Part shown: positions 35,562 to 64,000 of the stretch, one piece after another
Numbering within the stretch: the stretch's first letter is position 1
How the letters are laid out: each line of letters opens with the position of its first letter
Source: Candidatus Saccharimonadota bacterium
GTDB lineage: Bacteria > Patescibacteriota > Saccharimonadia > Saccharimonadales > Saccharimonadaceae
Direction: 5' to 3'
Assembly: GCA_017433855.1 (NCBI GenBank)
Contig: JAFRGM010000006.1
Location: 1-64,000 of the forward strand
Length of the DNA stretch: 64,000 nt
Translations under genes and position numbers: made by a program
Notes under the pieces: generated by a model
Told to the model about the DNA's origin: nothing
The model's database searches: none
Seen by the model: only the letters and a program-made list of their open reading frames with translations

Positions 35562-35795
35562 TTGCAAAATTTTTACGCATACTGTATAATGGTAATTGCA
35601 GAATCATTTTAATATTACAGTTCATAACGCAAAAAACCACTTTCAAAGGTGGAAAAGGCATCATTAGGCTTTGTGTCTTTGAAAAGTTTTTTGCGTGACA
35701 CATGATTCTGCGCCTAGTGGTGCCTTTTTTGTGCATGACCCTATTATAAAAGGGCACCACGGGCGCTATATCAGGGTAATGGGTCACGAGGCAAC
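35562..35795 (+). promoter_or_regulatory. Promoter and switch-like structured leader, copy 1
   Basis: TTGCAA (35562-35567), 17 bp, TATAAT (35585-35590). The transcript would begin at about 35598 with helix P1 (35598-35607 with 35702-35711), then P2 (35627-35637 with 35686-35696) and P3 (35641-35648 with 35677-35684). Loop strand A (GGCATCATTAGGC, 35657-35669) can pair with B (GCCTAGTGGTGCC, 35712-35724), followed by six T. C (GGCACCAC, 35753-35760) competes for B. TGACCC (35736-35741) pairs with GGGTCA (35781-35786) just before GAGG and ATG 35796. Confidence 0.7.
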
Positions 35796-37436
35796 ATGGT
35801 CACACATATCGCGAAATTATTAATAACAACACTTAGCCTAGTAGGCTTTACTGGTATCACTGCATTGCTGTGTCTTCCTGCCTCTGCGGCCGATAATGCC
35901 TCGGTTAACACTACCATTCTAGTCAACACCGCCTGTGGTATGACTGCCACTACCAATGCTGCCCACTCGGCAGTTCTGACTAACGGTAGTGAAAAGACTG
36001 GTATAGGTACTACTACCATTGCAGTTACCTGTAATGATGCAGCTGGTTTTGCTGTATATGCAGTAGGCTATGCCAACACTACGCTAGGTAATAATAATCT
36101 AGTAGGCACTCACAGTAACATCCCCACTGGTACTGGCACAGCATCATCAAACTGGGGTATGAAACTGACTTCTGTAAATAGTGAACGTCCTATCACTATA
36201 GAAAGCGACTATAGTGACTACGGTATAGTCCCAAATGAGTTCACCATGGTAGCTCACCGTGATGCTGCTACAGACCCAAATGGTGCTGCTTCTAGTATCA
36301 CTACTACTTACCGTGCTTACGTTTCTCCCACCCAAGCCGCAGATGTCTACCATGGAGTAGTACGTTATGTCTTAGTTCACCCATCTACTGTTAGCCCAGT
36401 GTTTAGCTTTGATGATGCTTTTCTAGCTGCTGGTAAAGAAAAAGTTACAGCAAATGATGGTAACAAGTACTATGCTATGCAAGATATGACTACAGATATT
36501 TGTAGTAGAATCTTAGCCTTTGACGATGAAGCTAAATTAGTAGACACCAGAGATGGTAAAACCTACTTCGTAACTAAGGCTCGTGATGGCAAATGCTGGA
36601 TGACACAGAACCTAAACCTAGATATTACTATTCCATCCTACGCCGAAGATAACGACCCATCTACCACTTATATTGCGCTTAATTCCAACAATACTGACCT
36701 TAACATCTACGAAGAAGCTGGTCTATATTCCGCAACGAGTGGCTATAGCTATGAGAACGATGTAATTAAATGGACGCCCAGCATGGCAACCTATAAGAAT
36801 GATGCCACGCACGAGAATGGCGAAGCTACGGGCAGTATCACTAGTGGCAATGATTATAACAAACCTCGCTCCTGGAGCCTCACCGTAAACAACAAGGATG
36901 TTTATCAGAAGGGCACTACTTTCACCTCTGCTGGTTGTAACTACTTTACAGACGCCAACTGCGTAGGCGCAAATAAGACCTTTAATACTGAACCCTTCGC
37001 AGAAAACGGTATGCACGGGCATCTTGGTAATTACTATAACTGGACGGCAGCGATTGCCACTAATGATTCGTCTAGCCTAACCGAGAATACTCATACCAAC
37101 ACTGCCATGAATCCAAATAATTCTATCTGCCCTAAGGGATGGAGATTGACTAGAAGTGCTAGTGACGCATCCTATAATGACTTTGCTTACTTGAGAGTAC
37201 AGTATAGTAATAGTAATAGTAATACCTACATGCTATACAGCCCTCTATGGTTTGTGCGCGCAGGCCGCGTCTTCAGTGGCTCGCTTAACAACAGCGGCGA
37301 CATCGGCTACTATTGGTCGTCTACGGTCTATGATGCTAACCTTGCGTACGACCTGGACATCAGTAGTAGCGGTTTCGGTCCGTCCAGCACCAACTATCGC
37401 TTCGTCGGGTTCTCGGTGCGTTGCATGGCGCGGTAA
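35796..37436 (+). CDS. FISUMP-domain secreted surface protein with variable-region-like tail
   Basis: The protein has 546 residues with a signal peptide (about 1-31, ending in A-S-A). The N-terminal ~200 residues are Thr/Ser/Asn-rich and probably a beta-sandwich. A FISUMP domain (Fibrobacter succinogenes major paralogous domain, TIGR02145) follows, with A-M-Q-D-M-T near 227, G-K-C-W-M-T-Q-N-L near 265, I-C-P-K-G-W-R-L near 443, and a C-terminal W-S-S-T plus G-F-S-V-R-C. The last 60 codons are GC-richer and look like a retroelement variable region. It is probably a surface binding protein; the anchor is not visible. GAGG lies 4 nt before the ATG. Confidence 0.8.
   Translation: MVTHIAKLLITTLSLVGFTGITALLCLPASAADNASVNTTILVNTACGMTATTNAAHSAVLTNGSEKTGIGTTTIAVTCNDAAGFAVYAVGYANTTLGNNNLVGTHSNIPTGTGTASSNWGMKLTSVNSERPITIESDYSDYGIVPNEFTMVAHRDAATDPNGAASSITTTYRAYVSPTQAADVYHGVVRYVLVHPSTVSPVFSFDDAFLAAGKEKVTANDGNKYYAMQDMTTDICSRILAFDDEAKLVDTRDGKTYFVTKARDGKCWMTQNLNLDITIPSYAEDNDPSTTYIALNSNNTDLNIYEEAGLYSATSGYSYENDVIKWTPSMATYKNDATHENGEATGSITSGNDYNKPRSWSLTVNNKDVYQKGTTFTSAGCNYFTDANCVGANKTFNTEPFAENGMHGHLGNYYNWTAAIATNDSSSLTENTHTNTAMNPNNSICPKGWRLTRSASDASYNDFAYLRVQYSNSNSNTYMLYSPLWFVRAGRVFSGSLNNSGDIGYYWSSTVYDANLAYDLDISSSGFGPSSTNYRFVGFSVRCMAR
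37254..37433 (+). repeat. Variable-region-like tail, copy 1
   Basis: These 180 bp align without gaps to 53596-53775. Invariant blocks (TATTGGTCGTCTACGGTC and GGGTTCTCGGTGCGTTGC) flank codons that differ at positions 1 and 2 while most third positions (C or T) are unchanged. This is the pattern expected when AAY codons in a template are mutated at adenines. Confidence 0.6.
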
Positions 37437-51865: not shown

Positions 51866-52104
51866 TTTTCAAACCCTATGAAATGCGTTAAAATTAAAGT
51901 GCAACAGTTTGGAATTTACAAAAGACAAGAACAATTTTTGTTCGTATTGTGCTTAGAAAAGGCATCATTAGGTTGTTGGAGCACAATCGGCATCTTGTCG
52001 TAAATTCCAGCTGTTGCGCCTAGTGGTGCCTTTTTTGTGCATGACCCTATTATAAAAATGGCACCGCTAGTTCAGAGTAGTCAATAAGCGGGTCACGAGG
52101 CAAC
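51866..52104 (+). promoter_or_regulatory. Promoter and switch-like structured leader, copy 2
   Basis: TTTTCA (51866-51871), 17 bp, TAAAAT (51889-51894); the RNA would start at 51901. P1 pairs GCAACAG (51901-51907) and TGGAATTTAC (51910-51919) with 52000-52009 and 52011-52017; P2 is GACAAGA/TCTTGTC; P3 is ATTGTGCT/AGCACAAT. Loop strand A (51961-51972) pairs with B (52019-52030), followed by six T. C (GGCACCGCTAG, 52060-52070) pairs with B over 11 positions. TGACCC (52042-52047) pairs with GGGTCA (52090-52095) before the GAGG site. The stretch 51749-51865 is AT-rich, with only a CACAATT/AATTGTG hairpin near 51783. Confidence 0.7.
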
Positions 52105-53778
52105 ATGGTCACACATATTAAAGCGAGATTATTAATAGCTACACTCAGTTTAGCCGTAGGCATAAGTGTTGGTGCTTCCCTGTGTTCTTCTGCATTCGCA
52201 GCGGTTGTCACTTCTTCCACTGCTACAGTCAACGTCTCTACTTCATGTAGTATGACGGCAACTATAAATACACAACATACTGCCAATCTAGTAAACGGTC
52301 AGGAGAGTACGGCGGTAAGCTCGTATTCTAGTGGTATAGGTAAAACTACCATTGCTACTACTTGTAACGATACTAATGGCTTTTCTATCTATGCTGCCGG
52401 TTACACTGGCGATAAAGTAGGTGCTGCCAATAGTACTAAGCTAGTGGGTGTAAATACTGGTGTTACTATTCCCACCGGCTCTGGCACCTCTGCCTCCAAC
52501 TGGTCCATGAAGATCACTGCTGCTTCAGGTGCTACTAATATGGTCCCCGCCACTATTGACAATGGCTTTGATGAGTACAGTCTAGTACCAAGTAACTATA
52601 CTAAAGTAGCTCATGTCACTACTGCCACCTACCAAGGTGCCCCTACCCAAATTACCACCACCTACCGTGCATATGTATCCCCCACCCAAGCTGCAGATTC
52701 CTATTCTGGCAAAGTTCGCTATGTCCTCATTCATCCATCTTCTGCTGTAGCCCAAGCTACCTTTGATTCTGCCTTCGCTAACGCTGGCAAATCCAAAGTC
52801 ACAGCAAATGATGGTAATGAGTATTATGCTATGCAAGATATGACTGCAGATATCTGCAATGGTGTAGTAGATTACGGTACAGAAACACAATTAGTGGATA
52901 CCCGTGACAAAAAGCTCTACTGGGTCCTTAAAGCTCAAGATGGTAAGTGCTGGATGACACAGAATCTAGACCTAGATCTAAAGACCGATGTGGCGCTAAC
53001 ATCTCTCAATACTGACCTCAACGTCCATGATGATGACATCTACAATGAGAACTTAGGCTATACCTACAATGAATCTACTGGCCTCATCACCTGGACCCCT
53101 AGCTCACCAACAAATACATCTAATGCAACGCACGCGAATGGTACTGCTACCGGCACTTCTATAAGCTGGTCAAACACGAATACTACCCCACGCTCCGTAA
53201 AACTTACCGTCAACGGTAGTGAAATCTACCAAAAGGATGGCTCTACCTTCTCCTCAGCCACTTGCAACTACTTCACTACCCCATCCTGTCTCAACTCCAC
53301 CGGAGACAACACCAATACCACTGCTAACTTCTCCACAGTACCATACGAAGCTAACGGTGAACATGGTAAGGTTGGTAACTACTACAACTGGTCTGCTGCG
53401 GTAGCATCTAATAACACATCCTCTAGAACAGCCAGTACCTATAATGCTATTGCCGAAAGTCCAAAGAACTCTATCTGCCCTAAAGGTTGGCGCTTAACCA
53501 GAAGCTCTTCTACTCCAGCTTATAATGATTTCCAGAACCTTTATTCAGCATATTCTAGTTCTATTGGTAAAGCTAATGGCTACCCTCTATGGTTAGTGCG
53601 CGCAGGCGGCGTCGACAACGGCACGCTCGGCGGTAGCGGCGACTACGGCCTCTATTGGTCGTCTACGGTCAATAGCGCTAGCAACGCGTACTACCTGAAC
53701 ATCCGTAGCGACTATTTCTATCCGTCCCTCAACCGCAATCGCGGCCGCGGGTTCTCGGTGCGTTGCGTGGCGCGCTAA
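52105..53778 (+). CDS. FISUMP-domain secreted surface protein 2, variable-region-like tail
   Basis: The protein has 557 residues and is a full-length paralogue of the protein at 35796. It has a signal peptide (about 1-32, ending in A-F-A), a Thr/Ser-rich N-terminal domain sharing T-T-T-Y-R-A-Y-V-S-P-T-Q-A-A-D, a FISUMP domain (A-M-Q-D-M-T, G-K-C-W-M-T-Q-N-L, I-C-P-K-G-W-R-L), and the tail W-S-S-T ... G-F-S-V-R-C. The final 60 codons are GC-rich and differ from copy 1 mainly at exposed-looking positions. The first ~20 bp of coding sequence are nearly identical to copy 1, continuing the leader homology. Confidence 0.8.
   Translation: MVTHIKARLLIATLSLAVGISVGASLCSSAFAAVVTSSTATVNVSTSCSMTATINTQHTANLVNGQESTAVSSYSSGIGKTTIATTCNDTNGFSIYAAGYTGDKVGAANSTKLVGVNTGVTIPTGSGTSASNWSMKITAASGATNMVPATIDNGFDEYSLVPSNYTKVAHVTTATYQGAPTQITTTYRAYVSPTQAADSYSGKVRYVLIHPSSAVAQATFDSAFANAGKSKVTANDGNEYYAMQDMTADICNGVVDYGTETQLVDTRDKKLYWVLKAQDGKCWMTQNLDLDLKTDVALTSLNTDLNVHDDDIYNENLGYTYNESTGLITWTPSSPTNTSNATHANGTATGTSISWSNTNTTPRSVKLTVNGSEIYQKDGSTFSSATCNYFTTPSCLNSTGDNTNTTANFSTVPYEANGEHGKVGNYYNWSAAVASNNTSSRTASTYNAIAESPKNSICPKGWRLTRSSSTPAYNDFQNLYSAYSSSIGKANGYPLWLVRAGGVDNGTLGGSGDYGLYWSSTVNSASNAYYLNIRSDYFYPSLNRNRGRGFSVRCVAR
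53596..53775 (+). repeat. Variable-region-like tail, copy 2
   Basis: These 180 bp are collinear with 37254-37433. About two dozen of 60 codons differ, nearly all at positions 1 and/or 2, with only a few third-position changes. Flanking blocks are identical. Serine, Asn, Tyr, Asp, Gly and Arg codons ending in C or T dominate the variable positions. Confidence 0.6.
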
Positions 53779-56295: not shown

Positions 56296-56676
56296 ATAAT
56301 TATAATATCATAAAAATGTCAAAAATGCGAAAAAGCCCCACTAGTTAAGTAAGGGTGGGCATCACTCAACTACTGGGGCTTTTTCGCCCTCTAACGCTTC
56401 ACTTCTATACCGGGTGAACCCCGGAAGCGCGACCCACCTCACACAAATTGGGGCCCGCCGGTTAGAGGGATTGCTATACCTTCGAAATGCTCCCTTTCTA
56501 AAGTGGAGGTAATACTTATAACTTTAAACCATGAAGAAATTTAAAGCCCGAAAAGGTTTCAAAGGCACGCAATTTCTGCTATACTAAAATCAGTATAGCG
56601 AAATTATAACTTATTGAGATGCGGTGTAGGGATTTTTGTTCCCTAACTGTCATCATTATATCACACAGGAGAAAAT
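56296..56676. other. 381-bp gap with a large structured region, candidate ncRNA
   Basis: A bidirectional terminator (AAAAAGCCCC with GGGGCTTTTT, about 56330-56387) is next to a 9-bp perfect helix CCCTCTAAC/GTTAGAGGG that encloses GCTTC/GGAAGC and CCGGG/CCCGG hairpins (about 56389-56480). Further on lies a perfect GCTATACT/AGTATAGC repeat (56578-56599) with a -10-like box for each strand, and TAGGGA/TCCCTA near 56625. On the minus strand this reads as a ~200-nt structured RNA ending in the terminator. I could not match it to a known RNA. Confidence 0.45.
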
Positions 56677-63659: not shown

Positions 63660-63897
63660 TTGCCATTGTATCAATAGTTGGCTATAATAAAAATGTCATA
63701 GTCTAATATAAGAGCACTAGTTGTTCTGGTTATTTAATCGAATATAAAAACGGCACCACGAGTGTTCCGTATTCGATTAGTCAGCAATGGCTAGTGCGAT
63801 ATTGGACTATGACAAAACTCGCGGTGCCGTTTTTGTGCATGACCCTAATACAAGAACGGTGCCGCTCGGATTGTCACATAAAGGGTCGTGAGGCTAC
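63660..63897 (+). promoter_or_regulatory. Promoter and switch-like structured leader, copy 3
   Basis: TTGCCA (63660-63665), 17 bp, TATAAT (63683-63688); RNA start near 63695. P1 pairs 63695-63709 with 63799-63813 (15 bp, one G-U); P2 is GCACTAG/CTAGTGC (63714-63720 with 63791-63797); P3 is TAATCGAATA/TATTCGATTA (63735-63744 with 63770-63779). Loop strand A (CGGCACCACGAGT, 63751-63763) pairs with B (ACTCGCGGTGCCG, 63817-63829), followed by five T. C (CGGTGCCG, 63857-63864) competes. GACCC (63841-63845) pairs with GGGTC (63883-63887) before GAGG and ATG 63898. The stretch 63573-63659 is AT-rich with an inverted CTATAAT/ATTATAG. Confidence 0.7.
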
Positions 63898-64000
63898 ATG
63901 GTCAAACATATTAAAATAGCATTATTTATCTGCACTTTTACTTTTGTGCTACTTGGCGTAGGTAACGCATGGGGAGATTCTCGCAGCATTACGGCAAGTA
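63898..64000 (+). CDS. Third FISUMP-family surface protein, start only
   Basis: The window ends after 34 codons. The visible part is a signal peptide (M-V-K-H-I-K-I-A-L-F-I, then a hydrophobic core and G-N-A-W-G). The first residues M-V-K-H-I parallel M-V-T-H-I of the two complete FISUMP proteins, and the leader has the same architecture. The family assignment is therefore by leader and N-terminus only. Confidence 0.55.
   Translation, partial: MVKHIKIALFICTFTFVLLGVGNAWGDSRSITAS

Follow-up and report, generated by a model that had tools for sequence, protein, structure and literature searches.

A candidate class of structured mRNA leader with a loop–flank pseudoknot upstream of surface-protein genes in Saccharimonadales

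The leader and its genomic setting

The window analysed here, the first 64 000 nucleotides of contig JAFRGM010000006.1 from a Candidatus Saccharimonadota bacterium, ends inside the 5' part of a gene for a FISUMP-like surface protein. The stretch immediately before this gene (63694–63897) is the third copy of a leader that occurs twice more in the window, and it is preceded by a near-consensus promoter. Its features, named as paired strands (P1–P3) or as single strands A to E, are as follows.

35585–35796, + strand: leader copy 1
51889–52105, + strand: leader copy 2
63660–63688, + strand: sigma-70-type promoter of copy 3, TTGCCA-17-TATAAT (11 of 12 consensus matches)
63694–63709, + strand: P1, 5' strand, starting at about +1 (partner 63799–63814; like most copies, with a U.G wobble some 10 bp from the base)
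63714–63729, + strand: P2, 5' strand, 12 + 4 pairs (MFE fold)
63730–63733, + strand: U-rich 5' bulge separating P2 and P3 (MFE fold; enrichment of TTTTA in 5' arms)
63734–63743, + strand: P3, 5' strand (MFE fold)
63746–63763, + strand: strand A with its A-tract, in the apical loop (17 of 18 positions paired with B and the U-tract; covariation)
63751–63763, + strand: strand A proper, CGGCACCACGAGT (partner of B)
63771–63780, + strand: P3, 3' strand (MFE fold)
63781–63797, + strand: P2, 3' strand (MFE fold)
63799–63814, + strand: P1, 3' strand (partner 63694–63709)
63817–63829, + strand: strand B, ACTCGCGGTGCCG (partner of A)
63830–63834, + strand: U-tract abutting the A:B helix (T at 96–100% at five positions in 45 leaders)
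63840–63845, + strand: strand D (TGACCC), in the loop of the B:C hairpin (partner of E)
63850–63865, + strand: strand C in its longer form, ACAAGAACGGTGCCGC, which pairs with B in the alternative hairpin
63857–63864, + strand: strand C, CGGTGCCG (partner of B)
63883–63887, + strand: strand E (GGGTC), complement of D, immediately 5' of the ribosome-binding site (sequence; alignment of leaders)
63890–63893, + strand: Shine–Dalgarno motif GAGG (sequence; AGG conserved)
63898–64000, + strand: FISUMP-like surface protein gene, 5' part, extending beyond the window to contig position 65379

Copy 3 is one of nine leaders in the assembly (596 208 bases, 11 contigs), all of which share a layout in which P1 lies close after the -10 box, P1–P3 form a rod with A in its apical loop, B follows P1, and C comes after a loop of similar length. 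A strong promoter followed at once by P1 was seen in every copy, and the equal promoter-to-P1 spacing that a first-pass annotation had reported for copies 1, 2 and 3 was recovered, at 5–6 nt. A 16-mer running through D, TTTTTGTGCATGACCC, is identical in all nine; exact matches to this 16-mer in genome contigs were scattered over many unrelated bacterial phyla and were taken as chance. Two other candidate features were set aside: an upstream open reading frame beginning at the ATG in GTGCATGACC, which on reading varied in length and sequence among copies, and a self-dimerizing palindrome, GGCGCC, in strand A, which is present in only a minority. Elsewhere in the window (56327–56387) lies an ordinary two-way terminator-like hairpin with A5/T5 flanks, GAAAAAGCCCC...GGGGCTTTTTC, so T5 tails do occur on such hairpins in this genome.

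Pairing and covariation

Strands A and B had been described as altered together in copy 3 while still pairing with one mismatch, and this is what we found: the mismatch is C.A, and in the nine own-genome leaders a change in B between copies is met by a matching change in A. Once the A-tract and U-tract beside the two strands are counted, copy 3 has 17 of 18 positions paired, a value reached in 2 of 5000 approximate dinucleotide shuffles. The pairing of C with B through two G-U pairs was likewise present, within a helix longer than first described, CGGTGCCGTTTTTGT with ACAAGAACGGTGCCG, which comprises 15 pairs including G-U (4 of 5000 shuffles of the same kind); across the own-genome copies the B:C hairpin spans 15–20 bp. 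The two pairings of B are predicted to be of similar stability in the leader copies (A:B mean -27.0, B:C mean -24.6 kcal/mol). The predicted fold of the copy 3 leader is far more stable than that of its shuffles (z = -7.3), as is that of the rod alone (z = -7.9).

The suggestion of compensatory change between loop and flank gained strong support when more members were counted. Among 22 leaders, 96.3% of A:B cells were paired and eight of 16 pairs had changed on both sides, an outcome matched by none of 500 shuffles; in 28 more diverse leaders the paired fraction was 93.5%, with 11 of 16 pairs changed on both sides (48 cells), again with 0/500 shuffles. When the alignments of A against B were slid, the paired fraction fell to 38–57%. 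In a set of 45 (the own nine, one each from other genomes and a few from a relative with many copies, G181), 43 leaders have at most one unpaired position among the 13 between A and B. Loss of this pairing in other copies would have refuted the original proposal; it is kept.

The rod itself provides the evidence that the element acts as RNA. P1, the base helix of the rod, differs in sequence in almost every copy (the identity of its inner 5' strand between copies is only 35%), while P1 strands pair at 95.5% with their own partners versus 44% with the partners of other copies. Wobbles in P1 are strongly strand-specific, with 55 T.G and three G.T (58 in total) against six A.C or C.A; the U is nearly always on the 5' strand, and a U.G about 10 bp from the base is preferred. 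This excess points to a sense RNA rather than a DNA cruciform. In 78 of 79 rods the 5' side holds most of the unpaired bases (mean 22 nt, versus 3 on the other side), and 55 of 80 leaders have the word TTTTA in their 5' arm, where 18 are expected; the U-rich 5' bulge and loop A are the only conspicuously conserved features inside the rod. We consider it close to certain that the RNA structure is real. A fold-back of the rod with matched P1 and inner-rod lengths was unsupported, as these lengths correlate negatively (-0.59).

Core and local additions

Judged from the aligned leaders, the universal core is the promoter, the rod, A, B and the U-tract, with C, D and E as later or local additions. 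Of the proposal that A, B and C co-vary, the A:B part stands across the 28 diverse leaders, whereas C and the B:C pairing do not hold as part of a universal core. The own genome and G181 conserve them, but about half of 30 other-genome leaders of the genus lack them or show them only weakly, and in a sizeable share of the other genomes B:C is no better than chance. The alternative partner of B is not constant, being C in the own genome and G181 and a local hairpin in most leaders, and neither is universal. Pairing of D with E is restricted to some lineages, and complementarity of the two beside or over the ribosome-binding site was found in the own copies and in class II of G181. One copy in another genome, G089, has neither rod nor A and keeps B, C and the gene, with the promoter adjoining B. 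Two G181 leaders carry a consensus-like AGGAGGT in the loop after the U-tract.

The U-tract marks a boundary. T occurs at 96–100% at each of its five positions in the 45 leaders (this was partly selected for, the search models and patterns having contained the U-tract), and it is more conserved than the A-tract that faces it. Conservation falls to background just after TTTTTGT, 2 nt past the U-tract and at +13 from the GG of B. An element that resembles the leader but has a broken U-tract (TTTGCG) stands 5' of an apparent ribosomal protein S12 gene.

Distribution and downstream genes

A covariance model built from the nine own-genome copies led to the relative G181, which has the same architecture in about 39 copies (a pattern search gave 37 exact and two near copies of B; 39 loci were read). 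Of 174 genomes sampled in the genus, at least 72 had matches to a model of the A...B unit (threshold E 0.001), several of them with close to 25 copies or at least 25. We examined 30 leaders from 30 other genomes: A:B was present in all 30 and a clear P1 in nearly all. Among 392 genomes of the order, 79 gave matches with a model to which distant members had been added (threshold E 0.01). These genomes spread over 25 of the 156 genera and several families, and the weaker matches were inspected only partly. Of roughly 30 loci beyond the main set that were examined by eye, most have the full architecture, with a few poor P1 helices and one weak match that was rejected as a plain terminator. No reliable member was found outside the order in a phylum-wide sample, and three pattern scans for viral carriers yielded a single contig, a lookalike without a rod. 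In five genomes many leaders lie at a distance of 50–350 bp from the end of a contig. The likely cause is that paralogues share an almost identical block, running from B to the signal peptide, which breaks the assembly; copy numbers are then underestimated.

A check for a FISUMP gene past 63898 had been proposed, an unrelated gene being named among the grounds for refutation, and the gene proved FISUMP-like. It matches TIGR02145 (E = 1.5e-9) at 38.8 bits, just below the cut-off of 41.65, and Pfam only at E = 0.045; FISUMP genes follow copies 1–3, with that of copy 3 slightly under the curated cut-off. An in-frame stop (L012:1878-1880; contig ~65377–65379) precedes the last ~48 codons of this gene, beyond which typical FISUMP sequence continues, so that a pseudogene, an assembly error or a real truncation may be at hand. 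In G181 nearly all copies with enough sequence precede FISUMP genes (recognized by the C-terminal motif), as do seven of 10 other leaders from the genus. In relatives without leader matches the 5' regions of FISUMP genes are mostly short. FISUMP domains are massively expanded in the genus: 16 of the 17 genomes counted (0.6–0.9 Mb) have between 4 and 55 matches, with or without the leader. Three FISUMP proteins match NF058581 (Pam pilus pilin C-terminal domain, CPR bacteria) weakly, a hint of a pilus-related surface role.

The picture of a leader for FISUMP genes applies within the genus and fails in most other genera, where the element is not FISUMP-specific. There the genes behind it include ones for membrane proteins, a Tsp45I-type restriction enzyme, an N6/N4 DNA methylase and an MmeI-like methyltransferase. 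Counted from promoter to ribosome-binding site, the homologous module that these genomes share is mostly 150–180 bp long, and the genes that follow it are unrelated. In two different genera, a leader together with a small membrane protein gene is 95% identical over 1.9 kb, reflecting either recent transfer or a binning error. At another pair of loci the leader and a nearby upstream gene are shared (95–96%) and the gene behind the leader differs, possibly a hotspot for gene replacement.

Possible mechanism and alternatives

The rod, the A:B pairing with its covariation, the boundary at the U-tract and the association with genes are established by the comparisons above; termination, the direction of regulation and any ligand or signal are inferred, in the absence of expression data. 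We propose that copy 3 belongs to an undescribed RNA class, acting in cis as a structured mRNA leader, and that it works as an attenuator whose terminator-like helix is a loop–flank pseudoknot, a reading to which we give an even chance. Transcription would start at the base of P1, and the RNA would fold into a rod of ~37 bp (P1, P2, P3) with bulges nearly all on the 5' side, displaying A in a large apical loop. B, emerging directly after P1, could then pair with A to form a pseudoknot of 13 bp plus the A:U tract, and this helix, abutting five U, would act as a terminator-like attenuator, with a putative signal at the rod or loop (none has been identified) setting read-through by RNA polymerase into the gene. 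In the own genome and G181 a second layer can be envisaged in which the read-through RNA re-pairs B with C, altering the D/E pairing beside the ribosome-binding site. Because the conserved unit ends at the U-tract right after a helix, transcription attenuation is the simplest account, and the A:B helix has one hallmark of an intrinsic-terminator attenuator, a G+C-rich helix directly before a U-tract 5' of a gene. Against this, five U make a short tract, and A and B lie at opposite ends of the rod, so that the pseudoknot requires the rod to bend or partly open. The invariance of the 16-mer through D in the nine own copies, too, points to a role beyond termination.

The main rival, possible though we think it unlikely, reverses the role of A:B, making it the antiterminator (a docked aptamer) while a local hairpin of the P1 3' end and B, using the same B nucleotides, is the terminator. 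Such a hairpin competes with A for B, is seen in other genera as GACACC-TTGC-GGTGTC-GTTTTT and is canonical in distant members; at 5 bp or more it occurs in 30 of 39 G181 leaders, 24 of 30 from other genus members and 11 of 14 more distant ones, versus 31% of shuffles. The similarity is, however, partly explained by P1 needing these ends for itself, and the hairpin is lacking (three pairs at most) in copy 3 and three other leaders, whereas A:B is near-universal. Somewhat less probable again is a purely translational switch, in which the ribosome-binding site is hidden by A:B and D:E and set free by B:C, or with these roles exchanged, and no termination is involved. The long own-copy B:C hairpin, the position of D:E in the own copies and class II of G181, and the G089 copy, reduced to B, C and the gene with its promoter moved beside B, all fit this; yet many leaders lack C and D:E and have the rod, A:B and the U-tract, and conservation does not extend past the U-tract. 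A translational layer through B:C and D:E remains possible in the own genome and G181.

That the rod and A:B serve mainly as a 5' stability element or a stand-alone small RNA, the gene downstream being incidental, seems improbable to us. The RNA 5' end would be buried in P1, and the unit is discrete, conserved and followed by unrelated genes, but a ribosome-binding site and start codon lie within ~25–110 nt in most members and one gene family follows dozens of copies. We give very little credence to a DNA-level recombination or inversion site (cruciform, integron-like), despite near-perfect inverted repeats, nearly identical leaders with different genes behind them and contig breaks at leaders: wobbles are retained strand-specifically, the promoter always lies outside the repeat, and no common sequence was found at the far gene ends in the stretches compared.

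Relation to known systems

An Rfam scan of the window at the gathering score returned two tRNAs only and no match for the leader, and literature searches found no description of the element. With intrinsic-terminator attenuators and transcriptional riboswitches it shares a structured leader close to the promoter, possible alternative pairings of one strand, a U-tract, a variable spacer and a ribosome-binding site. It differs in that the helix at its U-tract is a pseudoknot between a strand of the rod's apical loop and a post-rod strand, in lacking an identified ligand and in reaching ~39 copies per genome. Pseudoknots also characterize the preQ1 riboswitch family (PMC11625349). As there, a loop strand pairs with the downstream flank and the pseudoknot is coupled to control of expression, which for the leader is inferred. 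PreQ1 aptamers are, however, far smaller than the leader, with its ~37-bp rod and 13-bp pseudoknot, and the leader has another gene context and no Rfam match. The T-box riboswitch also has a long 5' rod, and UGGNACCG, frequent in strand A, matches the T-box consensus. We rejected this assignment: A varies together with B (CGGCACC, CAGCATC, TGACACC) and not with a tRNA end, the U of its UGG is C in 28% of 81 copies, there is no Rfam T-box match in the window, and the genes behind the leader are not amino-acid genes.

Implications

Regulatory RNAs of such uncultured, host-dependent bacteria seem hardly studied; the one paper found that mentions both Patescibacteria and riboswitches treats the latter only as tools (PMC11665869). 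We put forward, with about equal weight for and against, an order-wide RNA class in these ultrasmall bacteria, in which a long bent rod carries the 5' arm of a terminator in its apical loop and this arm forms a pseudoknot with a post-rod strand, the whole serving as a portable promoter–attenuator module for accessory genes (surface proteins, restriction-modification) that has multiplied to tens of copies together with one surface-protein family. A rod plus pseudoknot beside a U-tract would broaden the range of forms that intrinsic terminators take. One RNA class that precedes dozens of surface-protein genes in a genome, and in relatives restriction-modification genes as well, would amount to an RNA-based regulon, one that would cover host- and phage-facing genes.
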